Shown here: positions 12,398-39,490 of the stretch, piece after piece | Numbering within the stretch: position 1 is the stretch's first letter | Layout of the letters: the number at the start of each line of letters is the position of its first letter | Assembly (NCBI GenBank): GCA_030248195.1 | Contig: JASAND010015465.1 | Span: 1 to 64,000, forward strand | Length of the DNA: 64,000 nucleotides | Direction of reading: 5' to 3' | Source of the DNA: Trissonchulus latispiculum | Lineage: Eukaryota > Nematoda > Enoplea > Enoplida > Ironidae | Notes under the pieces: generated by a model | Databases searched by the model: none | What the model was told of the DNA's origin: nothing | The model's input: only the letters and a program-made list of their open reading frames with translations | Made by a program: the position numbers and the translations under genes

Positions 12398-13136
12398 TTA
12401 AAATATTACTTAATATTAACTACCTATATAATGAATGCAATAAGAAACAGTTACTTTTTCAATTGTTTGGAAATTTGATAATGTAAAGTTTTGATTTGAC
12501 TTTATATATGTGATGGGTAGGCTGCGTTTTGATCGTTTTTGTCTGTATATTTTGGTTCTAAGGCCTACTTACTTACATTTTGTACTACTGTTTCTGAGCT
12601 TCTATACTGATGACTACTCTGGGTCAAGGAATTTACGAATCTGTGAAAATGAAAAAGTGAAAACGAAAACAGTATGTTGTCTGTGTTGATTGTCTACTTA
12701 TTTAATCGTTTGTTTGCTGTTTGTCTGTTTGAATCCGAGCTTGAAACTAACAGTATTTTTTACCTATAATACCTGTAATTTTACCTGCAAGCTTAACTGC
12801 CTATAATGGGGTGACCCCCTTGTTGGTATCTGTTGTTAACTGTGGAAATTTCCTGTTTTGATCCTTTCTAGTGGGTCGGTTAGCAATTAATTTTGGGGAA
12901 AAGACGAAAATATTTGACAAACTACTTACCTGGGGAGTTTTTCGTCCCCAGGTAAGCCTCTTAGAAACCAATTTGGAAACGATAAGAAATTTTCCCCTTT
13001 CTAAGCGAAAATTATGGCCATCTCTCGATAAAGACTTCCAACGCTCACCGCAAATCCTGACTGACAGTTTCAGTCAGGACAAAGAGTAATCTACTGGGGT
13101 GACTGACTCAGCGATAGTTTTGTTTTTCCCAAGTCT

Positions 13137-13157
13137 TCAGTCTTGGGGCAGACTCGA
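13137..13157 (+). promoter_or_regulatory. Initiator-like motif and probable transcription start of element B
   Basis: TCAGTCTTGGGGCAGACTC is identical in the 5' and 3' LTRs (13137 and 30154), and its first 11 bases recur in element A. No TATA box stands at the usual distance. Position and conservation fit the start of the R region. Confidence 0.5.
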
Positions 13158-13373
13158 GTGAGGAAGGTTGTGTTTGTTCTTGATATCTCTGGTTCTCTGG
13201 TCCGTGCTTGGACAGAGTTTACATCGCCGATCTCTGGCATAGCTGAGTGGAAGTTTATTCGAGTATAGTTGATCAGTCAGACCGAGTTTACGGTGCAAGT
13301 CCCTAAACTTATTTTGTTAACTACGTGCCCTCATTTGCTGTGTTTTCTCTTTACAATCAAGTTTGGAATATCC

Positions 13374-13383
13374 AAGGGTAAGA
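13374..13383 (+). promoter_or_regulatory. Conserved splice donor in the LTR
   Basis: CAAGG/GTAAGAG is shared with the 3' LTR (30400-30410), and a related CAAGCGTAAGG occurs in element A (3476-3486). It lies about 240 bp after the initiator-like motif, a suitable donor for joining to the acceptors before the accessory ORFs. Confidence 0.45.
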
Positions 13384-14066
13384 GTAAGTTGTGAGTTTCT
13401 AGAAACGAGTCAACGAGTAACTAAAGTTTGATCTGGTTTTGTCCACTTCAGTATTGGTTTATGTAAATTGTTTTATGGATGTCCACAGTGAGTTGGTAAA
13501 TCTGAAAAGCTAGAATTGTTTATGTTAGCTGATCTTGTGCAAAACTTGTCTGGAACTTTTGTGTCATTGCACCTGTACTTTGCTATCAAACTGGAACTGG
13601 TTCTAATTTGTTTGGTATCTGATATTGCCCTATTGTTCAAGATTGTCTGAATAATTGTCTTTGAAATTTTAATAGAATCCAAATTTTTAGTCTTGCCTTC
13701 TGTAGGGATTCATTGCATAAATCTCGTAGTCGCTAGTCTAGATGAGCAGATTCGCCGTACAAATATTAGAGCAGATTTACAGAGCACGGATTAACAACTG
13801 ACTACGTTACAATTTTTCATAGCGTGATCTAACTAAGGAGCGATCGAATAGCTCTGACTAAAAAACCTGACGAAGAGGCGGTAATCGTGTAGTGGAATCT
13901 GGTCCACGAACTTATATGAAAAATACTGTAATAAGTGGGTAAGAGCTGTGGGTTGGAGGCCAAATCCCCTGGAAAACTGTAGGGAAATTAGAAAACCAGT
14001 GCTCTCGAGTTTAAAGTGAAGTAGTTTGACTGAAGTTAACCCTCAGCAAAAGCCTATTTTATTACA

Positions 14067-14502
14067 TGTGGAGCTCCCTCAGGCGAGGAAAAAGTGGGTA
14101 TCAATTTTCAAATAGAGCTCTACAAAACTTTTGTCTTTACTGTTTGAAAATCTGATTACTCCTTTCCTCGGAAAAATCTCACGACCCAAAAACAATTCTT
14201 TCTAGACTCTTTTAACTTCTCCCTGGGTTATAATTCTTGTATCGTCATATCATTGTATTAACTTTCATTACTTTGTTATTTAATTTACAGTACGCAGGCC
14301 TTAACTTTCATAAATTCAATTATACGTAAGGATAGCTACAAATTTTGCTAGACTGAGTTTTATCACGAACTTTCATGGAACAAATCTTCTTTTTGAGAAC
14401 TGCAGAATCCTTTTCAATTTTTTACAGACAATTTTTAGAGAAGTAGCTTTCTTTGACTGTGTTAAACTTTCATTTTTGAGCTAAGTCTACTGAATTATAA
14501 TT
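14067..14502 (+). other. 5' leader of element B with candidate primer-binding site
   Basis: The LTR is followed after two bases by TGGAGCTCCCTCAGGCG (from 14069). A TGG start is expected of a primer-binding site complementary to a tRNA 3' end. I cannot match it to a particular tRNA. The remaining 430 bases before the gag ATG are AT-rich leader without other recognised signals. Confidence 0.4.
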
Positions 14503-17500
14503 TTGCCACGGGTTTCGAACAACATGCCAAACGATACAGCTGAGTTAGGGCCACCTGCGCAGCCAGGGCCCCGGGGAAATCAGAATCATCCCCCTAGTGT
14601 TGAGACACAAGTTCTACAGAAATTGACAGACACACTTTCTGATTTTAATTCAGCTATTAGGGCGCAAGGAGTCGCCACCGCTTACAGTTCAGTCCCCATT
14701 TATGATGGGTCGCCCTCAGAGTCCTTCGAGGAACATCTCGAAAAATATGACCGTTTTTGCCAGGTCATGGACTTTGAGGAAGGGCAGAAAATTTTAACTT
14801 TTTCAAGTTCGCTCGAGGGCAGAGCATTAGAACAATTTCGGTCAGTACCGAAAGCTAGTCGTGGAACATGGGCCGAAATGGTTGAAGCCGCTAAGAAAGT
14901 TATGATTCCTCCCCATACGGCGCTGCATGCGTCATCTCTGATGTTTCAAGTGAAACAAGAGAAGGGAGAGCCCGTGATGGATTACCTCATGAGGCTTAAT
15001 AGGTATGCGCGGCTGAGCTTCACTGAAAAAGACGGTTTTTCGGAAAGTCAGATAGAAGTGCTAAAGTTACGTCTATTTTTATTCGGACTAAGAAGTGACT
15101 TGAAAGCTCGTGTGCCTCCAGGCTGCAAGACAATGGAGCGCGCGGTTGAGAAAGCGTTGCAGGCCGAGGGTGAATATCCCGGTGAAGCCTATCCATCTTT
15201 TATCGAGCCAAACTTCAGAAGTAGCCAGGACACGCCTGCAGCCATTGCAGAAGCTGAGAAAGCTGTAAAAGAGCTGAAAGCAAAGTTTGAAAAGTTTGAA
15301 ATTGACTCTAGGCAGAGCGGAAGTTCTAACAGAAACGGGAAAGGACGTGATTTGCCTCCCGGCACCACCTGTTTCAATTGTAATAGGCCAGGGCATGTTC
15401 GTAGAGAATGCCGCCAACCTGGTGGAGGTGCCTATCGGCCCAATAACCAAGGTTCGGACAGAAATTTTCAGAGAAGACCAGACGTAAATAGGGATTTTAG
15501 GAGAAATCAGAATCACCAAGGTCGACGCGAGGGAAATTTAGACCAGAATGGTCAACGAGACCGTTATCAACAAAGTAATAGGAATTATCAGGCCGATCGT
15601 AGAGACGATCGTGGTCCCCGAAGGGAACGGTATGATCAAAATCAAAATTATGATCGCAGGGATCGGGGTAGGGATTTTCCCCCGGAAATGAAGAGAGAAT
15701 ATGGTCCAAAGTTCGCTGTGTCTTGCTCTAGGACACAGGAAGAAGATCGACGCCATGAGGGCGGATATCAATCTGGGCGTTATTCTAGTGCCTCTGGTTC
15801 AGTCCATAGTGGGTATCAGGACGATCGCTATGAGGGTGAGCGATATAATTCTCCCCGCCGCAGAGGGGATTCTAGGTCTGACTCGTCCGGACAATATTCA
15901 GTTCGCTCTGCGCGAAACATTTCTCGAAATTGTTTGATGCATGCTAAGCGTTGTCTGGTCTCACCGCACTTTCAACATAAAGTTTTGATGTGCCGACAGC
16001 CTTTGATCTGTACTTGTCGAGCACCTGAACCCTATGTACCGTATGAACGGCCTGTGGTTAGGCCACCTAGTGTTAGCTCATTAACATCCACCGAGGAGGA
16101 ACTCTTTGTGCCGGTTTCTTGCAATTCTACCCGTTTGCCTAGTGCCAGTCGGGTCCGCAGAGTTTATGAGCCCATTGTGGATACCAATACAGTTGCAGTT
16201 CAGTGTAGCCTTGCACCAATTGAGAATAATGTCAAAGTTCAGGGTAGTGAGGAAAATGAGCCTAGCCTAGGCCAACTTTCCTCGGTAGTCATGTGCCTGC
16301 TGTGGGTCATGACTGTGTTGGTTCGAAGCCTGAGAAAGGCCGCCCTACCCGCTGCTTGGGTTTTGCTGGCCTTTTTAGTGTCGAACGCCAACGCACAGAC
16401 GCAGGCTGACACCGATTCTTCACGATTCCTAGCGGACGAGATAGCTAAAATTGGAACGTTGGTCTTACCCCGTTGGGGAGCAGTTTTGAGTCCCGCTGGG
16501 ATAGGGGTCATCTCTCAGAAAACTGAATATCTAGCTTTGATAGTACAGTTGGCGGTGCCGCCAATGTCTCCTCAATGGAAGCCCCCCGAATGGGCTAATG
16601 AGGAGGACTGTATCGATTTAACTACCGGAAAAACGAAGACTGACCAATACTGCGTTCGTATGATTAATCAAAGTTGTCCACAGTTTGATTACTTAGAGCG
16701 CGAAGTTGATGCTATTAAGTTGGAATATCGGAAATTATACTCGGGAGTACTGAATACGCATTTTTACTCGAAACTTCTATCTAGTTTGTGCCGATCTACG
16801 CCTGGGGTTTGTACGTCATATCCTACACCTGAGCAAAAGCATAGCCGACCAAAGCGTTTCATCGAATTTTTGTTGGCTGGGGCTCTGGGATTAGGAGGAT
16901 TAGCGAATAGCCTGGCTAACACTTATCATATGGGACAGTTAGATAATCGAGTTTCTGCTGTTGAACATGGATTCAACGTTTTGCGAGAGGATCAACTTAA
17001 GATTACGGACTCAATTAAGAGAATAGTTCATGCTAATGAGCAGGTTTACGCTTTTTTACATCATACCGTGCAGGATTTGACTACGCTGATTATTAGGGCT
17101 CGATGCTCAAACTTTTCCTATATGCGACAAATTTATATGCAACTTTTGGCGCACATTTTTACTTCCTCCTTGAGAGATGGTTTAAATTCTGTTATGAGAG
17201 CTGGACTGCATTCAGAAATTAATCCGAATTTGATAAATTTGCAAACGTTAAAAGGAATTATTCGAACTCACCCGTCATTACGGAATTCCTTGCTCAGCCA
17301 AGAGCCAAGTTTGATTTATCAATTTGGAAAAGTTTACCCGATCAAGATTGACTTCAACACCCTACGTTTCGGATTCATGCTTGAAATTCCCGTTCCCCTG
17401 GAACAGGAGGTACGTCCACTTTACGCCATCCACAATGTCGGTTATAACTCTCGAGAAAATGGAATTACAGCTTTGGCGCCTTTACCTGAGTATGCGCAGC

Positions 17501-19389
17501 GTTTAGACACTGGTGAAGTTCGCGAAATTGATGTTTCAGAGTGTAAAACCGCGCCTGGATTATGGTTTTGCCCGCCTAATGCGATTGTAACTAGCTTAAA
17601 AGCAAAATGTCTGCAAATCTTAATTAGTCGTACTATTGAACATATGGGGAAAGAATTTGAACACTGTCGAGAATATATTCAAGTTAAAGTTTTAGATAAT
17701 TCCAGTATCTACCGCACCACGCCAGCCGGAGTTTTAATTAGGACAAATTATACTGAGGTTATTGTCGCTCGTTCCCCCTCGCTGAATCATGTCGCGGAAG
17801 GTGAGAGAGTACCAGTCCCTGCAACTGGAACACTTTGGTTCGAGCACGGACGCTATCTACATTTAATCATAGGGAATACGATTTTAACCAGCACCTTAGG
17901 TGTTGCCAAAACTACCATAACCATGTCTGATTTACAAGAAATTATTGTTCCCGCCCCATTGGGACGGATCCCGTTGCATTTCACCGAACTTTCTACCGCC
18001 GCTTATGAAAACGAGCAAGCCAAAAACCTGATCCAAAGTCAGGTGAAAAATTATGTGCATCTACCGTTAATACCCTTAGAGCTTAAGCATGGTTTAGTAA
18101 TAGTGATTGTAATTGTTTTAGTAGGGTGTTTTATAGTTTGGTGGATTACGCCCTGTGGCAGGAAGTTTAGGGCCAGAATACGTAATCAGCGAGGTCCCCC
18201 GCCGCGACCTGACCGTCCAACTATCTCAGCCCCGGTAGAGAGCCAAAAGTTACAGGCATCTCTGTTTAGCGATGATGAAGAGGAACCTCCCCTAGAATTG
18301 GGAAACCTATCAGTTAAGAGCGATCCTATGCCGTACCGGCCACGAGAAAATTTAGAAACTTCTTTCGCAGAAGGAAATCGTAGATCAATGGCCAACCGCT
18401 GCCACGTGATGGCACACTATAAGCCTATGTCCAGAGACACCTCCTATGCCTCGTCTATGTCCGACTACGGACATGACCATCTAGACCTGAGTTCTCGGCC
18501 TATGACTGACGACAGTCAGGAGAGTCAGCCGTCACCACTAATCGATTTGGATTTCGGAAATACCAAAGGAAAAGGAGAAAGGATCGTGCGCTTTTCACGA
18601 CAAGTGACTTTTGAGGGTTCTGAGAACGAGAATAGTGGGTCACCTGGACATACACAGGCTGATGCCGCCACGAGTCCTTTTAAGCGACATGTTAGGCCAA
18701 CCAGTCCTGAATCTGACGGATCGGGACCTCAGACTCGCTCGGGAATTAGGAATTCCGGAAGAACTGTAAATTCACATTCAGTTCTGATGGTGCGAACTAT
18801 ACCGCTTATGATCAGTTTGCTTTTAGTAGGTAGGCCCGTGGATGCGCTTTTTGACACTGGCTCGTTGGTATCTGTCGTCTCACAAAGTTTAGTCGAAAAA
18901 TTGGGTTTAACCACTACGCCTGTTGAAACTTTAGGTTCACTTCGGACTGCTAACGGTGGGAAATGTCAAATTTTGGGGTATGTTAAAATACCGATTCTTT
19001 TCCGTGGAGCCGAAAGACGCTTACCCGTTCATAACTGGAAATTTTTAGTTGTTGAAAAACTTACAACCAATTGTATCCTAGGATCTGATTTCATGGTAAC
19101 CTTTCCTGGAGAAATTTCCTTAGATCTAGGGCAGCACACGATAACTTGGCCAGCGCTTGATGGCACCCGTGTGATCTTGCCTCTTACTATACCAGCTAAA
19201 CAGAAAACGAGCAGAACTTTTCAGATAGGAATGACCAAACGTGAATGTTGTACTTGTCACCTGGAGGAGGAAGTTGTTTCCCTGCCTCCTAGGCCGTTAC
19301 CTATGATTTACGTAAATTTGAATGGGCAACTCGTGCAAACTCTATTGGATACTGGCGCAAATTTGAGCTTAATGAATGAGTTTGGTTAG
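14503..19389 (+). CDS. Gag-Env-Protease polyprotein of element B
   Basis: One 1,628-codon frame holds domains in an unusual order. Residues about 60-250 form a retrotransposon Gag/capsid-like region. A CCHC zinc knuckle follows (C290, C293, H298, C303), then an Arg/Asp/Gln-rich tract. Residues 597-631 look like a signal peptide ending ANA. Next comes an envelope-like ectodomain with a furin-type site RPKR (782-785), a hydrophobic Gly/Ala/Leu-rich fusion-peptide-like segment, a heptad-type helix, N-glycosylation sequons and a membrane anchor at about 1198-1217. A retropepsin follows (DTGS at 1451, later ILGSDF), then the first part of a second retropepsin (DTGA at 1616) cut short by the stop. 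In known errantiviruses env lies after pol, so this layout is exceptional. The frame overlaps the pol frame by 14 bases. Confidence 0.85.
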   Translation: MPRVSNNMPNDTAELGPPAQPGPRGNQNHPPSVETQVLQKLTDTLSDFNSAIRAQGVATAYSSVPIYDGSPSESFEEHLEKYDRFCQVMDFEEGQKILTFSSSLEGRALEQFRSVPKASRGTWAEMVEAAKKVMIPPHTALHASSLMFQVKQEKGEPVMDYLMRLNRYARLSFTEKDGFSESQIEVLKLRLFLFGLRSDLKARVPPGCKTMERAVEKALQAEGEYPGEAYPSFIEPNFRSSQDTPAAIAEAEKAVKELKAKFEKFEIDSRQSGSSNRNGKGRDLPPGTTCFNCNRPGHVRRECRQPGGGAYRPNNQGSDRNFQRRPDVNRDFRRNQNHQGRREGNLDQNGQRDRYQQSNRNYQADRRDDRGPRRERYDQNQNYDRRDRGRDFPPEMKREYGPKFAVSCSRTQEEDRRHEGGYQSGRYSSASGSVHSGYQDDRYEGERYNSPRRRGDSRSDSSGQYSVRSARNISRNCLMHAKRCLVSPHFQHKVLMCRQPLICTCRAPEPYVPYERPVVRPPSVSSLTSTEEELFVPVSCNSTRLPSASRVRRVYEPIVDTNTVAVQCSLAPIENNVKVQGSEENEPSLGQLSSVVMCLLWVMTVLVRSLRKAALPAAWVLLAFLVSNANAQTQADTDSSRFLADEIAKIGTLVLPRWGAVLSPAGIGVISQKTEYLALIVQLAVPPMSPQWKPPEWANEEDCIDLTTGKTKTDQYCVRMINQSCPQFDYLEREVDAIKLEYRKLYSGVLNTHFYSKLLSSLCRSTPGVCTSYPTPEQKHSRPKRFIEFLLAGALGLGGLANSLANTYHMGQLDNRVSAVEHGFNVLREDQLKITDSIKRIVHANEQVYAFLHHTVQDLTTLIIRARCSNFSYMRQIYMQLLAHIFTSSLRDGLNSVMRAGLHSEINPNLINLQTLKGIIRTHPSLRNSLLSQEPSLIYQFGKVYPIKIDFNTLRFGFMLEIPVPLEQEVRPLYAIHNVGYNSRENGITALAPLPEYAQRLDTGEVREIDVSECKTAPGLWFCPPNAIVTSLKAKCLQILISRTIEHMGKEFEHCREYIQVKVLDNSSIYRTTPAGVLIRTNYTEVIVARSPSLNHVAEGERVPVPATGTLWFEHGRYLHLIIGNTILTSTLGVAKTTITMSDLQEIIVPAPLGRIPLHFTELSTAAYENEQAKNLIQSQVKNYVHLPLIPLELKHGLVIVIVIVLVGCFIVWWITPCGRKFRARIRNQRGPPPRPDRPTISAPVESQKLQASLFSDDEEEPPLELGNLSVKSDPMPYRPRENLETSFAEGNRRSMANRCHVMAHYKPMSRDTSYASSMSDYGHDHLDLSSRPMTDDSQESQPSPLIDLDFGNTKGKGERIVRFSRQVTFEGSENENSGSPGHTQADAATSPFKRHVRPTSPESDGSGPQTRSGIRNSGRTVNSHSVLMVRTIPLMISLLLVGRPVDALFDTGSLVSVVSQSLVEKLGLTTTPVETLGSLRTANGGKCQILGYVKIPILFRGAERRLPVHNWKFLVVEKLTTNCILGSDFMVTFPGEISLDLGQHTITWPALDGTRVILPLTIPAKQKTSRTFQIGMTKRECCTCHLEEEVVSLPPRPLPMIYVNLNGQLVQTLLDTGANLSLMNEFG
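16291..18210 (+). other. Envelope-like fusion glycoprotein domain inside the gag-pro frame
   Basis: Seen directly: a hydrophobic leader with a plausible signal-peptidase site after residue 631, paired Cys in the N-terminal subunit, RPKR cleavage site at 782-785, a glycine-rich hydrophobic stretch straight after it, a long helical region, and a single membrane span near 1198-1217 followed by a basic cytoplasmic tail. This is the layout of the F-like envelope proteins of errantiviruses and baculoviruses. It has no stop or frame change on either side, so it is either cut from a polyprotein or made from a spliced or internally initiated message. Confidence 0.75.
18820..19389 (+). other. Tandem retropepsin domains
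   Basis: The first domain has the catalytic DTGS (D1451) and the downstream ILGSDF motif, so it looks complete. A second catalytic triad DTGA (D1616) stands about 165 residues later, and its partner motif (LIGTDF) lies in the next reading frame near 19575. Retropepsins work as dimers, so two copies could form a hetero- or pseudo-dimer. Confidence 0.65.
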
Positions 19390-22300
19390 GCACTTAAAGT
19401 TGAAGATTTTACCTATGGATAGACCTTTACGTGCTGAGGTTGTAAACGGACAGGTTTTGAAATTTCGAGGTGCCGTCAAAGTTCCTGTCGAATTTTATGA
19501 TACACCAGGAATTACTGTTGAACACACTTTTCTAGTACCAAAAGGTTTGGCAGAAGACTGTTTAATTGGGACTGACTTTTTACACGAACATGGGGGTGAT
19601 TTGATTTTAAGCTTTGCGCAAGGGGAATTAAAATTGTCCAAGCCTGAGAGACCACCTATGATTGCAAAGTTAATCCATCATACGCCTGCCACACAGACTG
19701 CTTATAGAGTGTCAGCAATTAGGAAAGTTACAATTCCTGCCTATTCTGGAGTTACTGTGCCCGCTTTGGTGGAAAGTATGGAAAAACTGAAATATGACGG
19801 ATTTTTCGAACCCTCCGAATTGAAATTTGAGAGCAATGACTCCACTATACAAGTCATGCCCGCCATGGTCAATCTGAGACAAAGGTTAATTCCGGTTTTG
19901 ATGAAAAACAAGACTGGCCGCCCGCTAACTGTTTATGAAAATTCTACTTTAGGCAATGTCACCCCTAAGAATGAACTCAAGAAGGGACAAATTATGCGCG
20001 AGTACAAACCACTTGTCAATGAGCGAGGTGAGACAGTCTGTCTCAGAAATTCATTCAAGTCTAATTATGCAAAGAACGTTAAGGGGAGCCGAGATTTCAA
20101 TGTCAATATTTGCAAAATTAGTCGCCCGTGTAAATTGGATGACCTCCCAGAGGCCATGCGGGAGATTTCTTTTGACAAGGAAAATTTAAGCGAGAATGAA
20201 ATTGGACGATTCTTCGGTCTTTTGAATGAGAACAAAATTTGTTTTTCTCAGCATCCGTTTGATATCGGAAAATGCACCATTTTTAAAGCACATATTAACA
20301 CTGGCGAGTCAAAACCAATTTACGCAACGCCCTACCGATTGTCAGTGCATTTTAGGCAACCCTTATTAGGGGAACTGACAGAAATGCTAAAATACGGATT
20401 GATTAGGCCCTCCACAAGTCCCTGGAGCTCACCCATGATTTATGTGCCAAAACCAGGTGGAAAATTGCGGTTATGCGTAGATTTCAGGAAAGTTAACAAA
20501 ATTAGCGATCCAGATGTCTATCCGATTCCTCGAATAGATGACATTATGACCTCTTTAAAGGGAGCAAAATATTTTTCAACGATTGATTTGAGTAAAGGCT
20601 TCAACCAAATTGAATTGGACGACGAATCTAAGGCTAAAGCCAGTTTTAATACTTTCCATGGCCAGTTTGAGTATAACGTTTTGCCTTTCGGGTTAAAATG
20701 TGCGCCAGGTAATTTTCAGCGCTGCATGGAGCGAATTTTAGGGGACTTACAGTGGAAAAAGTGCATTATCTATATCGACGATATTCTGATCTTTTCAAAA
20801 ACTTTTGAGGAGTATTTGGAAATTATGCAGGAAGTTTTTGATCGATTGCGTGCAGCTGATCTAAAAATGAACCCAGGAAAGTGTCATTTTTTGAAAAAGT
20901 CTGTGACCTATTTGGGGCACATAATTTCCGAACAAGGAGTGGAACCGTTGAAAGAACGAATCCAGGCTATTCACGATTTGGCGGTACCCAAAAACATCAA
21001 AGACGTCGAAAGTTTTCTGGGGATGTGTGCATACTATGCAAAGTTCATTAAGGGTTTTGCGCATTTAGCGGCTCCACTTTATTCTCTAAAAAAGAAGGGA
21101 GTCCGTTTTGTCTGGAATAATACGCAACAGCAATCTTTCGATCTCCTCAAAAAAAGTTTAGTAGAGGCACCAGTGCTAGCTCACCCTGACTTGGCTAAAG
21201 GTTTCATTTTGCATACAGATGCCTCTGATTTAGGATTAGGAGCCGTTTTGTCTCAAGAACAGGATGATGGTAAATACCATCCTGTCGCTTATGCAGCACG
21301 GTCACTCAAGAAATATGAGAGAAATTACTCCACACATGATAAGGAATGTTTAGCTATGAAATTTGGTATTGAACATTTTCGTCACTATTTGTACGGGGGT
21401 CCCCCTTTCACTTTGTTTACTGATCATTCCGCGTTGAGATGGCTAATGAAACACCCCCCACGAAATTCTCGACTAGCTAGATGGCAGATGACTTTTTCAG
21501 AGTATGATTTTGAAATTAAACATCGGAATAACCCACAACTCCGAAACGCCGATGGACTTTCGCGAAATCCACTTTTTGCAGATATTGCTAAGGGCCTACT
21601 CGGAGACGAAAAGGAAAATGATCGAAAATTTGTTCAAGTGTACCAGGACGAGAGTGAAGAGCTAGTTGCTCACATAAATTCAGTAGTTGTTCATAATGGA
21701 GCCCAGAGGGCTCGAGATCCTAATATCTCAGTTGTCAATAAACTGCGCGCTAAAAAGGGTGTAACCACTGTCCGATCCAAAGTTTCGAAAATCTCGCAAC
21801 CCTCCAGTTCCACTAGCTCAGATGAAGAGAAAAGCCAGCCTTCGCCTGAGAAACAACCTAAATTGAAGGGCGCCGGTAAAATCTCTAGTTCAGTTTCCGA
21901 AGAGTCGGAGCCAGAGGTTAAGAGGTCAGTTAGACCGAGAATATTAGACTTGGACTATCCCAGTAAGGCATATGAGAAGTCAATAGAACCGCGATCCGAA
22001 CGTCAGTCTTCGGATACCAGCCGCCCTAAACGGAATGACCCGGCCACAGCCATGTTTAGCGAGGTTTTTCACCATGCCGTACGTGATAATTCTAATGTTT
22101 CTCTTAACCCTAAATCTTGGACAAAATTACAAGCCTTGCAACGTGAAGACTTGCTGTTGAATGGCATTATAGATTACAAAGTTAATGGAAATCTACCTAG
22201 CAACTTTAATCTTGCAGTCAAAATTACTTCGATAGCTGAGCAATGCGATATGCGTGATGACGTCTTAGTGCATTTAGAGAAGGTACGAGATACTACCCCA

Positions 22301-24073
22301 GAAGTTTTAGCTGTACCCGAAAGTTTACGAGATGAGGCGCTTACTGCGTGTCACGATAGTCCTTACGCCGCGCACAGTTGGAGAAATAAGACTTGTTTTC
22401 GATTATCTCAACATTTTTGGTGGCCCGGTATGTATACGGACGTTAAACGTTGGGTAGAATCCTGCCCGCGCTGTCAAAAACGTAAAGCCCCCCCAAAAAA
22501 TCCAAAAGCACCTTTACAGCATGCTCCTATGGCTGTAGAACCTTTTGAACGTGTTCACTGTGACCTCATGGATGTAAGCAAAGCTTCCAGAAGTGGTATG
22601 AAACATATTTTGAGTTTTGTTGACGCTTTTTCTAAATATGTTATAGCCATCCCTATTAAAAACAAGACAGCCTACACTGTGGCACAAAGTTTCCTCGAAT
22701 TTGTTATTTTGCAATATGGTTCTCCAAAACTGCTGATTTCAGACCAAGGAAAGGAATTTGTTGCGCTGCTGAATAAGGAAATTTGCTCGCAAGTGCAGAC
22801 TCGAAAACTTGAAACTACTCGTTATCACCCCGCCGCGAATGGTCAAGTTGAACGTTGGCATCGGACTTTACTTGATATGTTAGCTACGGTAACCGAAAAT
22901 CACTTGGAGTGGGATAACATGGTCCCATATTGCCAATTTGCCTATAACACATCCATAAATTCGACTACTGGTGAAACTCCTCATTATCTTTTACATGCAT
23001 GGGATCCCGTCTTACCTAGGGCAACCAATGTTTCTATACCTACTGACCGAAATTCAGGGTTTGATTATGTTAGAGAGGCTACTGAAGCATTGCAATTAGC
23101 CTGGTCTTTAGCTCGCGAAAAAATAGGAGCTGCTAGGAAAATTCAGGATGCAAACTATAATCAAAATGCAGTTGAGCCGAAATTTCAGGTTGGTGATTTG
23201 GTTATGATTAAAGCATCTAATGTCGCAAAACGAGATCAGGTTTTCAAACTTTTGGATAAGAAAATTGGACCATATCGTATAGAGAAAATTATTGGGTGTG
23301 TCGCAGAAGTCTATCCCGCAGGTAATCGACGCGCGAAAAGGGTTAAAGTTCAGTTTAATAATATGTACCCTTGTGTTGAACCTCGTGTAATTACGGCACC
23401 CGTCCACGATCATGATGATTCAAACTCAGATAAGGACGAATCTTCTGCTCCTAAGGGGCGGCACTCTAAAGTTGCTAAAGGACCGTTAGAGCCAGAACAT
23501 CCTCAAACACCGCCTGCTATTGACTCGCCCTCCGAGAACGAGGATCCGCAACCACAAATTCGCAAGCAGCCTAGCAGAAAATCTAAGGTTGTTCGTTCTG
23601 ATACCAGTCCTGAAAAACCGGCTGTCCAGCCTCGGAAGCCAGTTCCGCTCTCTCCTAAACAGAAAAGCGCTGCTCCCTTGAAAGTTGCTATTTCTTCCCA
23701 AGATTCCGCTTCGGATTCCGATAGCATTCCCCAGTTCATGGGTGAAGAATCTTTGACACCTGAAAAGGACCCCATCGCTTTTAACCGTAGGCATTTCTTT
23801 AATCCAGTTGACGCCCGTTGGCAACGTCATATGGCAGTGCTGCGTGGTCTACCAATCGACCATATCCTGCTAGAAATGATGAGACATACCCCACTCCATG
23901 AGCCTTACGAGGTCATTAATGTTATTGGAGACGGGAATTGCTACTACCGTGCTATCTCGCTAGCCATTACTGGCTCTGAAGAGCACTGGGTACATATCAA
24001 ACGAGACTTACTCACGTTTCTTGAGAGATACGAGCACAAACGGCGTTACCAAGACCGCCGAATATGCCACTGA
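19376..24073 (+). CDS. Pol polyprotein of element B: protease end, RT, RNase H, integrase, OTU start
   Basis: The 1,565-codon frame begins with the C-terminal part of the second retropepsin. Reverse transcriptase follows with catalytic D404 and the YIDD box (466-469), then RNase H with its first Asp at 615. A Ser/Lys-rich linker leads to an integrase with an HHCC zinc finger (H993, H1000, C1030, C1033) and a DD35E core (D1063, D1123, E1159). RT and integrase resemble the Metaviridae (gypsy) type. A long charged tail follows (about 1330-1500), then the start of an OTU domain with GDGNC (D1519, C1522). The frame is +1 to gag-env-pro and ends inside the OTU domain. All catalytic residues that I could check are present. 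Confidence 0.9.
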   Translation: MSLVRHLKLKILPMDRPLRAEVVNGQVLKFRGAVKVPVEFYDTPGITVEHTFLVPKGLAEDCLIGTDFLHEHGGDLILSFAQGELKLSKPERPPMIAKLIHHTPATQTAYRVSAIRKVTIPAYSGVTVPALVESMEKLKYDGFFEPSELKFESNDSTIQVMPAMVNLRQRLIPVLMKNKTGRPLTVYENSTLGNVTPKNELKKGQIMREYKPLVNERGETVCLRNSFKSNYAKNVKGSRDFNVNICKISRPCKLDDLPEAMREISFDKENLSENEIGRFFGLLNENKICFSQHPFDIGKCTIFKAHINTGESKPIYATPYRLSVHFRQPLLGELTEMLKYGLIRPSTSPWSSPMIYVPKPGGKLRLCVDFRKVNKISDPDVYPIPRIDDIMTSLKGAKYFSTIDLSKGFNQIELDDESKAKASFNTFHGQFEYNVLPFGLKCAPGNFQRCMERILGDLQWKKCIIYIDDILIFSKTFEEYLEIMQEVFDRLRAADLKMNPGKCHFLKKSVTYLGHIISEQGVEPLKERIQAIHDLAVPKNIKDVESFLGMCAYYAKFIKGFAHLAAPLYSLKKKGVRFVWNNTQQQSFDLLKKSLVEAPVLAHPDLAKGFILHTDASDLGLGAVLSQEQDDGKYHPVAYAARSLKKYERNYSTHDKECLAMKFGIEHFRHYLYGGPPFTLFTDHSALRWLMKHPPRNSRLARWQMTFSEYDFEIKHRNNPQLRNADGLSRNPLFADIAKGLLGDEKENDRKFVQVYQDESEELVAHINSVVVHNGAQRARDPNISVVNKLRAKKGVTTVRSKVSKISQPSSSTSSDEEKSQPSPEKQPKLKGAGKISSSVSEESEPEVKRSVRPRILDLDYPSKAYEKSIEPRSERQSSDTSRPKRNDPATAMFSEVFHHAVRDNSNVSLNPKSWTKLQALQREDLLLNGIIDYKVNGNLPSNFNLAVKITSIAEQCDMRDDVLVHLEKVRDTTPEVLAVPESLRDEALTACHDSPYAAHSWRNKTCFRLSQHFWWPGMYTDVKRWVESCPRCQKRKAPPKNPKAPLQHAPMAVEPFERVHCDLMDVSKASRSGMKHILSFVDAFSKYVIAIPIKNKTAYTVAQSFLEFVILQYGSPKLLISDQGKEFVALLNKEICSQVQTRKLETTRYHPAANGQVERWHRTLLDMLATVTENHLEWDNMVPYCQFAYNTSINSTTGETPHYLLHAWDPVLPRATNVSIPTDRNSGFDYVREATEALQLAWSLAREKIGAARKIQDANYNQNAVEPKFQVGDLVMIKASNVAKRDQVFKLLDKKIGPYRIEKIIGCVAEVYPAGNRRAKRVKVQFNNMYPCVEPRVITAPVHDHDDSNSDKDESSAPKGRHSKVAKGPLEPEHPQTPPAIDSPSENEDPQPQIRKQPSRKSKVVRSDTSPEKPAVQPRKPVPLSPKQKSAAPLKVAISSQDSASDSDSIPQFMGEESLTPEKDPIAFNRRHFFNPVDARWQRHMAVLRGLPIDHILLEMMRHTPLHEPYEVINVIGDGNCYYRAISLAITGSEEHWVHIKRDLLTFLERYEHKRRYQDRRICH

Positions 24074-24530
24074 TGATGAACTCTTTTTGACTGCTGCCTG
24101 GCTACGCACGCCCATACAGTCATACTCAAAGTTTGGTCCTGTTTGGGCTTGGCAACAATTCTTGCCAGACGCTTTGCTTGGATCAAGCCAAAGTTATGAG
24201 AGAAATTCGCTCTATCTATACAATGAGAATAGCGATCACTTTATGGTAGTGCTATCCGTACAGACACCAGCCGGATTCCAATGGCCTACCAAGAACTCAC
24301 CTAAAATCAAGATTATGGAACTAGTTTCTAGTTCATCTTCAAACCAGTCTTCCCCAGCCGATGATCCTAAGAAATCGGGCAGATCCTCTGCACCTAATGT
24401 AGAGAAACTTTTCTCAGAAAGCCCTTTGTTCTCTGGGCCAAGTCCCCTTTTTCAGAATCCCTTTAGGAGGTCCAAGCGTGGAGATGCCTCCTCCGGCCCT
24501 GCTTCGAGTCGTTACTCGTCTGAACAATAG
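24021..24530 (+). CDS. C-terminal half of the OTU domain and tail of element B
   Basis: This frame is +1 to pol and overlaps it by 53 bases. The OTU fold continues here: a Trp-rich middle segment, a short Y-L-Y-N strand and the catalytic-type His in N-S-D-H-F (H73 of this frame). The nucleophile C1522 is in the pol frame, so an active enzyme would need both frames in one protein. OTU enzymes are ubiquitin-type deconjugating cysteine proteases. A Ser-rich tail of about 70 residues follows. It could be reached by programmed frameshifting or could reflect an inactivating indel. Confidence 0.65.
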   Translation: MRDTSTNGVTKTAEYATDDELFLTAAWLRTPIQSYSKFGPVWAWQQFLPDALLGSSQSYERNSLYLYNENSDHFMVVLSVQTPAGFQWPTKNSPKIKIMELVSSSSSNQSSPADDPKKSGRSSAPNVEKLFSESPLFSGPSPLFQNPFRRSKRGDASSGPASSRYSSEQ

Positions 24531-25651: not shown

Positions 25652-26277
25652 ATGGCTCCAAAGTTGGTTGTAACGTCAGTTGAATCGGATGAGAAAATTG
25701 AAGGTGTTGCTGATCCAGAGTTTCCCTCGCCGTTAGATTGTCCTGAATCCTTGAGAGGTCCTCATCGTTGGAGTAGTGATTTGCCCGAAGGTCTCAGAAT
25801 GGAGCCTGGAATGATTGATATCTACACAGATCCCCGTAGAGCTGAGTTGTTTCGTCCTAATATGCGTGTGCAGTTAGTGTCCCAGGTTGCCCAAACCTGC
25901 ACGTTCCTGTGCTTGCAGTGTTTTTGGAGAGTGGGTTTAAGTTTTTATGGAGTCCCGTTTGTGGTTTTTCCGTTGTCTGATGATTGCGTTTGTCCCGTGA
26001 TCCTCATAAGTTGCGTTTGCTTGAGCTTGTCCCCTCATTAGGAGGCGGAATGTTTCGTTGCCCTAACATTAGGTGTCAGTGTCCCAAAGTCGTTATTTTA
26101 CATGAGCATGAGGATTGGTATTATGGTAACGGTGTGCAAGTGTTGCCTGCAGAGGCTAAGTTTTTGTTGACTAACATCCATCGTGTGTTTCCGTTGCATG
26201 TCCCTGGTGATGTCTTAGATTACCGTATGCGTATGCTTGGTGAGTGTCCCCCATTTCATCCTATCATCCTTAACTAA
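25652..26277 (+). pseudogene. Accessory Cys-rich gene 1 of element B, broken by a frame change
   Basis: Two overlapping frames (25652-26041 and 25984-26277) together resemble the intact accessory proteins at 43-714 and 26463-27242. The first holds the C-T-F-L-C-L-Q-C-F-W cluster and the G-V-P segment; the second holds C-P-N-I-R-C and the hydrophobic C-terminal part. The reading frame changes near 25984-26041, so the copy looks inactivated unless the coding path is spliced. An acceptor-like AAATTTAG precedes the ATG. The N-terminal third is unlike its relatives. Confidence 0.55.
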
Positions 26278-26445
26278 GTTCCTTTTCCTTAAGTCCACCA
26301 GTACGAGTAAGATCCTTATCCCTTAGTTGTCATGATTCTTTAGTCCCTAGTTACAACTTTAGGTAAACATCAGAATAGAGTCCGAAGTAACACTGTGTGT
26401 GTGTAGTGTGAATGTTCGATATCTCACCTAAGATCCTTATTTTCC

Positions 26446-26458
26446 TTTTGTTTTGTAG
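26446..26458 (+). promoter_or_regulatory. Splice acceptor of accessory gene 2
   Basis: TTTTGTTTTGTAG stands directly before AATC-ATG. The same arrangement (TTTTTGTTTGTAG, then ATG) occurs at 18-45 in element A, which fixes the likely start codons of both proteins. Confidence 0.55.
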
Positions 26459-26462
26459 AATC

Positions 26463-27242
26463 ATGTCAAGTTACGTTGCCCGTTGGTTGGCCCAGTGTGA
26501 TCTGTTGAGTGAGGAGAGTGATGATGATTACCATTCGGCAGCTGCCTACCTGCCGTCGTCCTGGTCCTCTTCTTCTTCTTCTTCTTCTTCTTCTTCTTCT
26601 TCTTCTTCTTCTTCTTCTTCCTCCTCTTCGCCGTCTTCCGGCATTGCGTGCTGGAGTCGTTCTCCTACCATCCTGCCGAAGATCCTTCAGTTGAGATATG
26701 ATCCCGGTCCCCCGGAGAGCTGTTGTCCATCGTCCGCCCAGCGAGGTCCGATGAGAGCTGAAAGCCAATTGCCGCCGGAGCTGAAGATGCTCCACCACCG
26801 TGGTCAGCGAGATGTCATCTACTGTGCGCCAGGTGCCAATGATAAGTTTGTCCCCTTCCGTCCCCTCTGTGTGTTGAGTTCTGATGTGGTTGCGTGTTGC
26901 ACTCTGTTGTGTGTGAACTGTTTTTGGAAATTTAGTTTAAGTTATTTTGGAGTGCCTTTTCGTTTTGTTCCTGCACCTACTAAGTTCCAGTTTTATGATT
27001 TTCCCACTAAGTCTTCTCTTTTGAATTTAGTTCTTCCTAATCGTTCGCCTGCCTTCCGTTGTCCTAACAGGATCTGTTTGAGTTCTTCTACTACCATTTT
27101 GCACGAGATCCCTAATTGGCGTTTGCATGGCCCGTTCACTATTTGTAACCGGCATCCCATTTTTGTTGAAACTTTATTGGATTGTTTGCCTGGTTTGCAT
27201 GACCCTCCTATTCCGGAGGATTTTGTGAATGTTGACTTTTAA
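26463..27242 (+). CDS. Accessory Cys-rich gene 2 of element B (spliced ORF)
   Basis: The 259-residue protein starts at the ATG four bases after a strong acceptor (TTTTGTTTTGTAG, ending 26458); an upstream in-frame ATG at 26412 would lie in the intron. After an acidic segment there is a run of about 25 Ser encoded by a (TTC)n tract. The conserved core then follows: C146-x3-C150-x2-C153-F-W, a S-Y-F-G-V-P segment and C200-P-N-R-I-C205. The core and the C-terminal LP-G-L-H-x-P-x-I-P-E-D-F block match the protein at 43-714. The function is unknown; metal binding is inferred. The position after pol resembles that of accessory genes in complex retroviruses, but no homology to those is claimed. Confidence 0.7.
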   Translation: MSSYVARWLAQCDLLSEESDDDYHSAAAYLPSSWSSSSSSSSSSSSSSSSSSSSSSPSSGIACWSRSPTILPKILQLRYDPGPPESCCPSSAQRGPMRAESQLPPELKMLHHRGQRDVIYCAPGANDKFVPFRPLCVLSSDVVACCTLLCVNCFWKFSLSYFGVPFRFVPAPTKFQFYDFPTKSSLLNLVLPNRSPAFRCPNRICLSSSTTILHEIPNWRLHGPFTICNRHPIFVETLLDCLPGLHDPPIPEDFVNVDF

Positions 27243-28524: not shown

Positions 28525-28577
28525 GGTTTCTTGGTCCAGTGGTGGTTGGTCCGATGGTTCGATTCCCGGCCAGCAAC
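28525..28577 (+). other. tRNA-like box A/box B segment in the 3' region of element B
   Basis: TGGTCCAGTGGT resembles the tRNA box A and GGTTCGATTCC is a perfect box B, but the spacing is too short for a full tRNA and no cloverleaf closes. Element A keeps GGTTCGATTC at about 1942 in the same context, so the motif belongs to the family. Confidence 0.4.
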
Positions 28578-28589
28578 CTCAGCGTGTAG

Positions 28590-29150
28590 CCCGTCAGACC
28601 GTATCCCGGTCGCCAGTGATCAGCGTCAGCGTCAGCATCCTCAAAATCAGACCGTATCCCGGTCGTCACCGTCAGAATCAGCGTCCGCGTCAGCGTCAAC
28701 GTCAGCATCGTCAGCATCGTCACCGTCAGACCGTATCCCGGTCGCCCGTGAACAGCGTCAACAGCGTCAGCGTCAGCGTCATCGTCAGCGTCAGCGTCAG
28801 CATCGTCAATATCATCATCAGACCGTATCCCGGTCGTCAGCGTCATCGTCAGCGTCATCGTCAGCGTCAGCGTCAGCGTCAGCATCGTCAGCATCGTCAC
28901 CGTCAGACCGTATCCCGGTCGCCCGTGAACAGCGTCAACAGCGTCAGCGTCAGCGTCAGCGTCAGCGTCAGCGTCATCGTCAGCGTCAGCGTCAGCATCG
29001 TCAATATCATCATCAGACCGTATCCCGGTCGTCAGCGTCATCGTCAGCGTCAGCGTCAGCGTCAGCATTGTCAGCATGCTCCCCGTCAGACCGTATCCCG
29101 GTCGCCAGTGTACAGCGTCAGCGTCAGCAGCATCGTCAGCGTCATCGCCG

Positions 29151-29181
<31 letters not shown>

Positions 29182-29185
29182 CACC
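28590..29185. repeat. GTCAGC minisatellite with nested 16-bp repeat
   Basis: Hexamer units of GTCAGC/GTCATC type are interrupted seven times by GACCGTATCCCGGTCG (from about 28597 to 29087), and a longer unit of about 180 bp is repeated at 28727-28903 and 28903-29087. The block ends in a (CAT)n run at 29153-29178. Several frames on both strands are open for 260-300 codons simply because the hexamer lacks stops. No such array is present at the equivalent place in element A. Confidence 0.7.
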
Positions 29186-29728: not shown

Positions 29729-31125
29729 TGTGATGGGTGGTCTAATTCTTGGTGTTTTTTGTACAGTTTCTGATGCTCTTTGGTAGATACACCCCCTGTT
29801 CGGACACTCACAGAACTGATGGAAAATTCCTGTTTTTGTCAATTTGACTGACTGTCGTTGTCTGCTATCTGTAAATACTTTCAGTTTAGTTCAGTTTGCA
29901 ATTAATGGGGTCTTAGATGCAGAAAAATATTTGATAATAGGCTTATCTTGCAGAAATTTGGGGACAAAATTAAACCCCAAGAAGCCCTTGAGCAAACCAT
30001 TTTTCATCTTAAAAGATTAGTTCCCTTTCTTATCGAAAAGAATCACGGTCACTCCAAAAGACTCTTGCGCTTGCCGAAAGGACCTTGACTGACAGGACAA
30101 AGACTTAAGACGCTGGGTGACTGACCCAGCCACAATCTGGTCTCTCCCAATATTCAGTCTTGGGGCAGACTCAGTCCAGAACGGTGGTGTCTTTCTTTCG
30201 TACGGCTTGCTATTATTGCAGCATACTGCTATACAGTCGGTTGTGACTTGAGGTTTGAGATCAGTTTTGACCTGTGCAGTGCAGCGGTCCACAGTGTTAT
30301 TTGTCAGTCTTTCAGTCGCGTGCCCCTCTTTTTGTCGTTTGACCTTATTAGCTGTGCGAGTTTTCTGGTAACTAGCGAATTTAATCCACCGGATTCATCA
30401 AGGGTAAGAGTGTAGCAGGAAGGCTACTGAGAACATATTGACCTGTGTTTTGTGTTTTAAATTGATGATTTATTGACGGACTAGTAGTCTGGACGTTCTG
30501 GGTTTAGTATTGGTATTCTTGTGCTGTTTTGCGTGGAATTCTGTAAAAACTGTAACTGTGAGATACCTTTTATTTTCTGATCAAAAACTCATTTACCTTG
30601 TATTCTCTTGCTGGTTGGAGGTTGATATTGTACTCTTCATGCTATCTTGTTGTCTTCTAGGTTCTGTGTCTAGCTAAGTTATACTGCGTGTGTAATTGTA
30701 ATTTTAAAATTAATAACGCTATTTTAGTCTTGAGTCCCCTAGGGAATTGCTATCTAAATTTAGGTATGGTCTCACAGTGTCATGAGCGATAGTCTATGGA
30801 GTTATTAGATAACAGTAACTAGCGATTTTAAAAGTTTCATAGAGTCATCCGATAGTAATTGCAGACTAAATAACGTGTACTCGCAATTTTGTAGAGTTTG
30901 GATATTCTGCGTATAGGCAAATTCACACCTGAAGAAGAGGCAGTGAAACCGGAGTTAAATTGATATTACATTGGAACCGGAACTGAAATAGTTATTGTAA
31001 TAATTGGGCTAGATTGTGGGTTGGAGGCTAGAACCCCTGGAAAACCTGAGAGAACTTAAATCCAGTGCAATCCAGAGTACTAATTTGACTAAAACAAACC
31101 CTCAGCGAAAGCCTATTTTATTACA
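29729..31125 (+). repeat. 3' LTR of element B
   Basis: The 1,397-bp repeat opens TGTGATGGGTGG and ends TATTTTATTACA, followed by TATA. The initiator-like motif lies at 30154 and the splice donor at 30403. It shares GCCCTTGAGCAAACC (about 29986) with element A rather than with the 5' LTR, where that block is not evident. It is 161 bp shorter than the 5' LTR. Confidence 0.7.
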
Positions 31126-32455
31126 TATAAAACAACAGCTAAGTACCGGCACTTACAAATACATAACAAGACTAAAATAAAACAGCCTAAATCAAAACAA
31201 TACTTAACCGGCAGCTAGTCGTCGGTGTGAGCGCCCGAGGACGACCCCGTCTTAGGTAATGACCCCCAGAGGCTCACACCGACGATTGGGTACCCATAAG
31301 CTGATCTAACAACACTTCCAATAAGTGACAAACAAAAACACAGCAGAACCGAAAATTAATTATTCAAAAATATCAAAACTAGAAGTCGAATGCTTCAGAT
31401 GTCAATTATAAAGCTTGTGGTATTCTTAAAAGTAATTTTTAAGAAAGTAAAAATAGTCTCACCCGGACAAATCTAAGTCCATGACAACTATTGGACAAGA
31501 AACCTGAAAGGAAATAGTGAAAACAGTGCATAGTGCAAGAGAATTTTAAAGTGCAAAATTTTCAAACGAGACTAAACACATTTTTTCACAGAAGAGGGGA
31601 GGAGGGTTTACCCCCTCTTTTTGAACGAAATCCGGAGTTACCCCCTTTTTTAGTTGGAAACTATTTCTCAAAAGAAATTCGATCATAAATGTTACCTGGC
31701 TGGACCAGGGGTCAATTTCCCAGGCTGTGGAAATCAGAGGCTGGTTCAACAAAAGGAAAACCGCGAATCCCAAATTCTACCCATTGAACACGATCGCCAC
31801 GTTTGTAAAATTATTTGGAATACTCCAAAATGGAAACTAGACTTAGATTGCAGGAACGTGATGAGTGTGTGAATTTGGGAATTCTGAGAGAATTTAAAAG
31901 TAAAAGAATATTTATTCGAACATAATTTATTTCATACGAGTACAAAAACTACCACTAGCAAAAAGAACCTCAACCTTGACCGTGATCGAAGCATCCCCCC
32001 AGAACCCCCCGAACCAACCTCTAATTACCTGCCACTAATGCTTTCCAAATGGAGCTGAATGAAATCCGGATAGTTAGGTGAATTGAAAACCCTCCGTCTT
32101 TTATAGTGCAAATCTAATTTGCATATTATGCGTAATAGTGCTTTTTCGATAGCTAATTTTGGAAGCCAACGATTCTACACAGAAGAAACATAGCTAAACT
32201 CAAAAGCCAGACAGTTTATACAGAACCTAGAAAACATTCAATTGTTGCAAATAATTTAACAGAATTCTGGTGCGCCGCTGCGCATATTCTCACAACACCT
32301 TCTCTACTAAAATGCTTACGCATATGTAAGTGAACTTCCTGCTCTATATATCTTCTTCGTGGCGTCGTTGAAGACGCCCATAGTTGAAGATGTGAAAAAC
32401 GTCGCGAGTCAAATTTTAATAGCGCCCGTGCCAGGAAAAATTCAAACATCTACCC
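31126..32455. other. Intergenic DNA right of element B
   Basis: No gene is recognised. A 13-bp perfect inverted repeat (CGTCGGTGTGAGC at 31220-31232 against 31272-31284) could form a hairpin with a 39-base loop. The remainder is AT-rich with short open frames only. Confidence 0.4.
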
Positions 32456-38465: not shown

Positions 38466-39069
38466 GACAGTAAAGTGTGTAGACTGTGGAGCGGCGTGCA
38501 AGAGTACATAATACATAAGAGTATGACAAACGTTACAAATATTTGTACAAAGACAGAAGATCTGTGCCTTTGCCTCACTGCAGTTCTGTCTTGCGTATAA
38601 CTCAGAGCACAACAAATAGTGACTTTTATGTTGACATATGCTGTTCCTTTGATGGCTGTTGTTGTTTTATTCAAATTTGTTTGACACTGTGGCATAATCG
38701 TTAGCGAATTGTGACTTGACCAAGGAGTGGGATGAGATTCTTAATCCCACAAGATCATTTACCGAAAAGAGTAAAATAGGGTTGGTTGACGTAAAATTAT
38801 CTCTAAACTTCACTCAAGCTTGGGTTTCTCTGCTCTTACCTCTTTCATAAAAGGATCGAGTTAATTTCAACCATTTCCACCAACAGCGACCACTAGAATC
38901 ACATAAAATTAAAAGTCAGCGCTGTCAACCGGGACCTGACGTGGATATGGAACTTCTACTTCAATATTCATTGTTTGGGAATTCCCATTGTAACAGCCAA
39001 TGTATGGAACCCTTATATAATAAATCCTAAATCATATCATTCAAACAATCAATCATAAATCCTAATTTA

Positions 39070-39230
39070 CGGTTTTGAGGCAGCTTCGATCAGTTTTGAG
39101 TGCAACTGAGAAGCCCCATCACAAAACCATTCCAAAAGTGAAACCCAGGTTAAAACCGGGAACACTTCTAAGCACTTCATAATTTTAACTTTAGACTTCG
39201 TTGAAACGTTGTGTCTACGGGTTTCATTCA
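39070..39230 (+). ncRNA. Structured small-RNA-like repeat, copy 1
   Basis: Shares GGCAGCTTCGATCAGT, CAACTGAGAAGCCCC, CAAAACCATTCCAAAAGTGA, an Sm-like AATTTTA and a 3' stem GAAAC...GGTTTC (39203-39225) with four other copies. TTATATAATAAA lies about 60 bp upstream. It is part of the tandem unit. Confidence 0.4.
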
Positions 39231-39490
39231 TAGCAGAAACCGTAGCCTACTGGCAGCTGGTGGCAGTAAAAGCACTAAAAATGTGAAAAATACGTTTTGC
39301 AATAAAATAGGGCCCTTAATTCATTTTATTTGATGAGGGAAATGCATGTCCACATAAATAAATATATAGGCTAAATTCAACAGTTTATTTTCATAGATGA
39401 AAACTTTTAAGGGGGGGGAGGATTGCGAATTTACGAAAATTTAGAAAAATCTGATTTTCTCAGTTTCACACACTTCCATATGCGTTTGAC

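Follow-up and report, generated by a model that had tools for sequence, protein, structure and literature searches.

An envelope-like glycoprotein encoded in frame between gag and protease in Ty3/gypsy elements of the nematode Trissonchulus latispiculum

Layout of the element and its undamaged form

We analysed a window of 64,000 nucleotides from the nematode Trissonchulus latispiculum (GenBank assembly GCA_030248195.1, contig JASAND010015465.1, positions 1 to 64,000 of the forward strand; C10490 in our contig numbering), in which a pair of long terminal repeat (LTR)-like sequences at 12821-14067 and 29797-31126 encloses a retroelement of ~18.3 kb. The first open reading frame of this element (ORF1) encodes Gag, an envelope-like glycoprotein (Env) and a retropepsin-type protease (PR) without an intervening stop. 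An initial annotation made from the sequence had drawn attention to this order and had placed a signal peptide, an RPKR site followed by a fusion-peptide-like stretch, and a membrane anchor between the zinc knuckle and the retropepsin; all of these were found again, they were kept in relatives, and the uninterrupted gag-env-PR frame proved to be recurrent and strongly selected. We think it reasonably probable that the window holds a damaged Ty3/gypsy copy (~18 kb) of a lineage that encodes a fusion-type glycoprotein inside one giant polyprotein of Gag, Env, PR, reverse transcriptase (RT), RNase H, integrase (IN) and OTU. The features of the element are as follows.

12821-14067 (+): 5' LTR-like repeat (TGT...ACA), 59% identical over 1310 aligned columns to the repeat at 29.8-31.1 kb, with a sharp common 3' end; the family flanks Env copies on other contigs
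14503-19389 (+): ORF1, 1628 aa without a stop; Gag, Env-like protein, retropepsin 1 and the beginning of retropepsin 2
14800-15417 (+): Gag, from the capsid match (14800-15018) through the CCHC zinc knuckle (15367-15417); Pfam Retrotrans_gag E 2.7e-7 (residues 100-172), zf-CCHC E 1.5e-5 (residues 289-305)
15430-16287 (+): linker from the zinc knuckle to Env, open in frame
16288-16395 (+): predicted signal-peptide region of Env; hydrophobic stretches at 16267-16323 and 16339-16395 in the hydropathy scan, position kept in relatives
16288-18201 (+): envelope-like glycoprotein of 638 aa, from sequence features, genomic copies and profile similarity to F0 fusion proteins
16846-16857 (+): RPKR, furin-type cleavage site (residues 782-785); R-x-K-R invariant in aligned copies
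16858-16914 (+): fusion-peptide-like hydrophobic stretch, from hydropathy, relatives and register with the F0 fusion peptide
18091-18147 (+): predicted transmembrane anchor of Env (residues 1197-1215); mean hydropathy of 3.05, the highest in ORF1; conserved
18829-19092 (+): retropepsin 1 (DTGS, near residue 1451), complete; Pfam Asp_protease_2 E 3.9e-14
19300-19389 (+): start of retropepsin 2 (DTGA), interrupted by a frame change in the window's copy; Pfam RVP E 4.7e-7; in one frame in the related locus L014
19376-24073 (+): ORF2; remainder of retropepsin 2, RT (20444-20926), RNase H, integrase and the start of an OTU-like domain; RT-RNase H nearest to Ty3 among solved structures
24021-24530 (+): remainder of the OTU-like domain, in another frame in the window's copy; continuous with pol in the related locus L035, Pfam OTU E 1.1e-7 in the related locus L028
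25652-26277 (+): accessory Cys-rich ORF 1, in two frames in the window's copy; a single open frame in L035
26412-27242 (+): accessory Cys-rich ORF 2, 276 aa, resembling accessory ORF 1
29797-31126 (+): 3' LTR-like repeat, pairing with the 5' repeat; the same family lies around other Env copies

The Gag of the window was of the Ty3/gypsy type with one CCHC knuckle, the flanking LTRs carried TG...CA ends, and the enzymes followed the order PR-RT-RNase H-IN. The best solved relatives of the RT-RNase H region were Ty3 structures (4ol8, E 1.7e-77; 7q5b, E 3.1e-77), a placement made among solved proteins. This combination is that of Ty3/gypsy elements (Metaviridae), and no target-site duplication was seen by eye beside the window's LTRs. 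The retropepsin that the initial annotation had placed at residue 1451 was retained, with the correction that a second one starts behind it and is interrupted by the frame change.

Retropepsin 2, the OTU-like domain and accessory ORF 1 are damaged in the window's copy, and gag, Env and retropepsin 1 are open. In the closest relative examined (loci L014 and L035 of contig C10547), whose Env is 82% identical to the window's, retropepsin 2 and pol share a single frame (L014), pol runs on in frame into the OTU part, and accessory ORF 1 is open (L035). Four further contigs (C2971, C2476, C1375 and C21565) carry Envs 98-99% identical to that of the window within frames of 3,356-3,370 aa. Because L014 and these near-identical copies are unbroken, ORF1 ends in the window at a lesion of this copy and not at a gene boundary. 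The undamaged layout is a single Gag-Env-PR-RT-RNase H-IN-OTU polyprotein: the Gag-Env-Pro chain of the initial annotation had joined the right three parts but stopped short of RT, RNase H, integrase and OTU. Frames reached 3,708 aa with RT inside, gag and pol being continuous in the manner of the Cer1 element. A programmed frameshift between ORF1 and ORF2 was rejected for the lineage, given that the frame change falls within retropepsin 2, that L014 uses one frame and that the near-identical copies exceed 3,300 aa.

Recurrence of the order and selection on its parts

The species' own assembly was searched over 734 Mb and 21,732 contigs. From 1,144 Env candidates 69 copies were scored, the window's copy counted in; 63 had no internal stop and 18 lay inside unbroken frames of 3,300 aa or longer, and chance was excluded because Env recurs in this way. 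The initial annotation had proposed a search for other copies of the same order. In the RT search, 150 of 12,472 candidates were scored, and the figures drawn from the RT and Env tables together hold among the matches listed. Seven contigs were common to the Env and RT tables (C10547, C666, C17482, C8005, C9982, C575 and C20130), and Env lay 2262-2263 nt upstream of RT in all seven.

We then read 20 DNA pieces upstream of RT that were chosen from the RT matches, 16 at first and 4 more later; the in-frame share among them is biased upward because many were picked for their long open frames. Eleven of the 20 (L009-L014, L017, L020, L024, L041 and L042) contained an Env of the window's type, hereafter F-type, located 3' of gag and 5' of PR/RT or in as much of this order as the piece covered before its end; L024 gave no gag match. 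A different, class III-type Env occupied the same place in four pieces (L015, L016, L040 and L043), and neither Env type nor gag was matched in the other five (L018, L019 and L021-L023). The zinc knuckle and the pre-RT region were joined in one frame in 8 of the 9 first-sample F-type copies, L024 being broken, and the knuckle and the protease motif were joined in L041 and L042 (F-type) and in L015 and L016 (class III-type), while the L040 and L043 pieces ended before the protease motif. More distant families kept the same order.

Copies with env after pol, which would have spoken against the proposed order, were not encountered: neither F-type nor class III env was matched in any of the eight downstream-of-RT pieces read (L026, L028, L030, L032, L034, L035, L037 and L039). 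Nested insertion or a one-off fusion was excluded by the recurrence of the order across copies, and a domesticated host gene was not favoured, given the LTRs and the many dispersed copies. No relatives of Env or RT were confirmed in IMG/VR.

The boundaries of the element recurred as well. The window's 3' LTR, used as a query, had 56 matches, and eight contigs besides the window's were common to the LTR and Env tables among the matches listed. On three of them (C4184, C17254 and C19411) Env was flanked by the LTR at either end, the two LTR starts being separated by 14.1-17.2 kb (17.0 kb for the window's pair). The distance from LTR start to Env start was 3681 nt in C4184, 3636 in C17254, 3567 in C19411, 3462 in C1375, 3519 in C2971 and 3242 in C18984 (the last extrapolated from a partial LTR match), and 3467 nt in the window. 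In C21565 and C19262 the LTR end alone was matched, ~13 kb 3' of Env, as expected for a 3' LTR.

The LTRs themselves were more diverged than the state of the frames suggests. The window's pair is ~59% identical (161 gap columns of 1310), and the pairs of L027/L028 and L031/L032 also diverge beyond what their frames indicate. LTR identities in four other copies were 83-89%, 88.6%, 95.0% and 99.0% over the parts compared, and three further pairs gave no LTR match in the flanks compared, yet the frames of these elements are largely or wholly open. Between C7053 and C13054 the nonsynonymous divergence (dN) of Env was 0.006, far below the value implied by the LTRs if both had been neutral since insertion. 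A high-copy repeat assembled into chimeras, sequence exchange among copies or in-place selection on copies may account for this mismatch.

We evaluated selection by the ratio of nonsynonymous to synonymous divergence (dN/dS). In four pairs of F-type copies other than the window's, the ratio for Env was 0.009, 0.022, 0.023 and 0.026; in the PR region it was 0.026-0.061, and the linker had 0.11-0.26. For the gag piece, three pairs yielded 0.082, 0.022 and 0.041, one of which was a tie with Env, and the fourth pair had one synonymous change and no amino-acid change. When F-type and class III-type pairs were taken together, 5 of 11 Env pairs were saturated at synonymous sites and gave no ratio, and the other six ranged from 0.009 to 0.058. 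Env is therefore among the most constrained parts of the element, with a constraint that roughly equals or exceeds that on the enzymes. The linker is constrained as protein and is therefore probably translated.

Nature of the F-type and class III-type envelopes

At the N-terminal side of the F-type Env, hydrophobic signal-like stretches were found by the hydropathy scan at ORF1 residues 589-607 and 613-631; the second of these closes with N-A-N-A, which we take to be a signal-peptidase-type end. The RPKR at residues 782-785 directly precedes FIEFLLAGALGLGGLANSL. R-x-K-R was invariant in all nine aligned Env copies and in 10 of 10 in a sub-alignment; each of the nine copies continued with a Gly/Ala/Leu-rich stretch, a heptad-like helix and, later, an anchor, and nine cysteines were invariant among them. 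The predicted cleavage site, hydrophobic fusion peptide, heptad-repeat helix and C-terminal anchor correspond to the layout of class I fusion proteins.

A profile of the nine Env copies was compared with 177,635 solved sequences and gave 13 matches at E up to 10, of which the top eight were F fusion glycoproteins (best E 0.017). A second profile, restricted to the cleavage and fusion region and built from 10 copies, gave 18 matches, the first 12 of which were F0 fusion glycoproteins (best E 0.0028) and the next three hemagglutinin-esterases; the top 15 were thus all class I proteins, at weak E-values. The F0 chains for which a virus was named came from human metapneumovirus. In the alignment of the Env profile to F0, the cleavage site, fusion peptide, HRA coiled coil and a following cysteine were in register over ~190 residues.

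Several observations weigh against this assignment and against the overall interpretation. The F0 matches are weak and derive mostly from near-identical sequences, and a comparable search run with the Env of class III type returned ribosomal P0 as its top match at E 0.0025, an evident chance match. The window's Env and eight aligned relatives matched no Pfam fusion family, Baculo_F included, at a divergence too large to exclude distant kinship with the latter. A single-sequence AlphaFold model of Env was uninformative, with a mean predicted local distance difference test score (pLDDT) of 37.8. The similarity to class I proteins on which the initial annotation had made its claim depend was supported, though weakly, by matches of the sequence profile to F0 and not by structure prediction. 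We regard the F-type Env as likely, but not proven, to be a class I fusion protein, because the F matches amount to nearly one sequence and a chance match reached E 0.0025.

In the four class III-type pieces, the slot held a signal-like stretch, a Cys-rich ectodomain, a basic site and an anchor. All four Envs matched Monjiviricetes_fusion (best E 5.4e-6), BDV_G (5.2e-6) and Glycoprotein_B (0.0012), which we take to be class III families; for L015, the one locus for which bit scores were shown, these scores fell below the curated cut-offs. The profile of this Env gave four matches among solved structures, with no viral glycoprotein among them. The type was confined to these four pieces among the 49 loci examined. 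RT-RNase H identity to the window was 46-48% in two class III-type elements, as against ~65-97% in F-type pieces, and L044, the one class III-type downstream piece profiled, contained RT, RNase H and integrase but no OTU. Two unrelated fusion-protein types hence share one slot. This sharing may have arisen by a swap in a common gag-env-pol ancestor or from two origins.

The region 3' of the RT showed additional features. The OTU-like cysteine protease domain forms the C-terminus of pol (window 23800-24530; L028:1-3453), and the window's OTU-like region, split over two frames, gave no Pfam OTU match. Two paralogous Cys-rich accessory ORFs sit between pol and the 3' LTR (window 25652-27242; L035), and the pair in L035 had no Pfam match. 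A tandem repeat rich in CGTCAG units precedes the 3' LTR (window 28571-29183). Related elements carry an ORF 3' of pol with a match to NADAR, presumably an ADP-ribose-removing family (L030:3880-5352, E 3.9e-9, above the cut-off; L028:5047-6477, E 1.7e-7, below it); such an ORF is unexpected in an LTR retroelement and is suggestive of counter-defence. Elsewhere in the window we found large direct and inverted repeats of ~84-97% identity that resemble another repeat element (38796-43533), a Wnt-family exon (37923-38465) and a gene fragment of the nematode-specific Srv chemoreceptor family (60246-61163, E 3e-9), the last of which marks the host as a nematode.

Expression of Env and comparison with known systems

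Given the constrained linker, the best reading in our view is that Gag, Env and PR-Pol are translated without interruption, one after the other. Translation would begin with Gag while the ribosome is cytosolic; the signal sequence inside the chain would then dock the ribosome on the endoplasmic reticulum (ER), so that the outer part of Env would be made in the lumen. The anchor would halt transfer, and PR and Pol would be synthesised on the cytosolic side again. Lumenal cleavage would fall to signal peptidase and furin, and cytosolic cleavage to the element's own retropepsin. A single RNA would in this way supply Gag, Pol and a two-subunit Env of class I-like type, broadly as the polyproteins of flaviviruses and alphaviruses give rise to their capsid and glycoproteins, and by analogy with flaviviruses the polyprotein is probably threaded through the ER membrane.

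The initial annotation had left a choice between a polyprotein and internal expression of Env, and the evidence favours the former without settling every copy. Env could instead come from its own subgenomic message, made by cis-splicing or by spliced-leader trans-splicing just upstream, with the open gag-env-PR frame a by-product of packing; we consider this unlikely, though a real possibility. Errantiviruses do express env from a spliced RNA. In the excerpted description of Cer1 of C. elegans, the mRNA for CERV is spliced and takes in polyprotein residues within 1871-2272, although no stop separates gag from pol (PMC10309623). Strict splice-acceptor patterns (TTTNCAG, TTTCAG or TTTTAG) were present between the knuckle and the signal peptide in the window, L009, L010, L014 and L020, close to the signal peptide in L014 (at -11) and at -101 in L009/L010, but were absent from the linker in 4 of 9 copies (L011, L012, L013 and L017); the restriction of the scan to strict patterns itself counts against the polyprotein, as do the acceptor-like patterns and the upward bias in the choice of upstream pieces noted above. 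Internal initiation is possible for L014 and L011/L017/L020 because they have Met residues close to the signal peptide, another adverse point, whereas the 99 residues that precede the signal-peptide Trp are free of Met in L009 and L010; L012/L013 have one Met, at -38 of this Trp. An output of Gag, Env and Pol at 1:1:1 would also be unusual for a retroelement. On the other side, the knuckle-Env linker stays open and is held under amino-acid constraint, which, with the copies that lack an acceptor or a Met there, speaks against a message of its own for Env.

The membrane protein might also be a targeting or budding domain acquired by Gag, its furin and fusion-peptide features being superficial. 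The lack of a Pfam fusion-protein match for the F-type Env and best profile E-values of just 0.003-0.02 against solved structures would suit such a domain, but the cleavage motif, Gly/Ala/Leu-rich stretch, helix, cysteines and anchor kept in all nine copies, the register with F0, and a recognisable viral glycoprotein in the same slot of sister elements make it improbable. Least credible of all is an artefact of assembly or insertion, in which an unrelated env fragment entered a lone gag-pol copy or the contig joins pieces of different origin. The window's LTRs, which diverge far beyond the damage to its frames, could result if a high-copy repeat was assembled chimerically, and the window's flanks may be chimeric; for the gag-env-PR order itself, the artefact is refuted by recurrence and constant spacing on many contigs. 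Beyond translation of the polyprotein, we lean slightly towards a broader picture: a nematode lineage, retroviral in all but its name, with a flavivirus-like, ER-threaded Gag-Env-Pro-Pol polyprotein, in which the internal slot was swapped between unrelated fusion proteins (class I F-like and class III chuvirus/gB-like) and gag, pol and the single frame were left in place. This would be a third way to make Env, beside a spliced env RNA and a separate env ORF.

Errantiviruses (gypsy, ZAM and their kin; Metaviridae) resemble these elements in joining an Env of class I type, cut by furin, to the Gag and Pol of Ty3/gypsy, but their env lies 3' of pol in its own frame and is expressed from a spliced RNA, whereas Env here lies between Gag and PR in the same frame. 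Cer1 is likewise a nematode Gypsy/Ty3 element without a stop between gag and pol; unlike the elements here, it has no Env between the two in its description as excerpted (PMC10309623). The BEL/Pao elements with env (Cer7, Tas, Roo and Anakin) are also LTR elements with captured viral glycoproteins, and in the accessible part of one account the glycoprotein of Roo, Tas and Cer-7 lies downstream of the polyprotein (PMC7642597). Anakin took a chuvirus glycoprotein and can be compared with the sister elements and their class III-type Env, but it belongs to BEL/Pao and the elements here to Ty3/gypsy. Pneumovirus and paramyxovirus F proteins align with the Env profile at the cleavage site, fusion peptide, HRA coiled coil and a following cysteine, with weak E-values, and differ in that Env here is embedded in a retroelement polyprotein. 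Flavivirus and alphavirus polyproteins carry a capsid, an internal signal sequence, a furin-matured glycoprotein and an anchor in one translated chain; the likeness is one of layout alone, these being RNA viruses without reverse transcriptase or integration. The initial annotation knew of no described family with env between gag and PR, and none was found among open-access titles and abstract openings; an earlier description in subscription papers or repeat databases, which lay outside this scope, is possible.

Env-bearing LTR elements are the standard model of the passage from retrotransposon to virus, the textbook form of which adds env after pol with an RNA of its own. An Env kept inside the Gag-Pol chain, in unbroken frames and held about as tightly as the enzymes, or more tightly, would represent another such route. 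The lineage raises testable questions on the topology of the chain, the processing of the precursor and the Gag:Env:Pol ratio, and its two unrelated fusion-protein types in one slot offer a natural case of modular envelope exchange.

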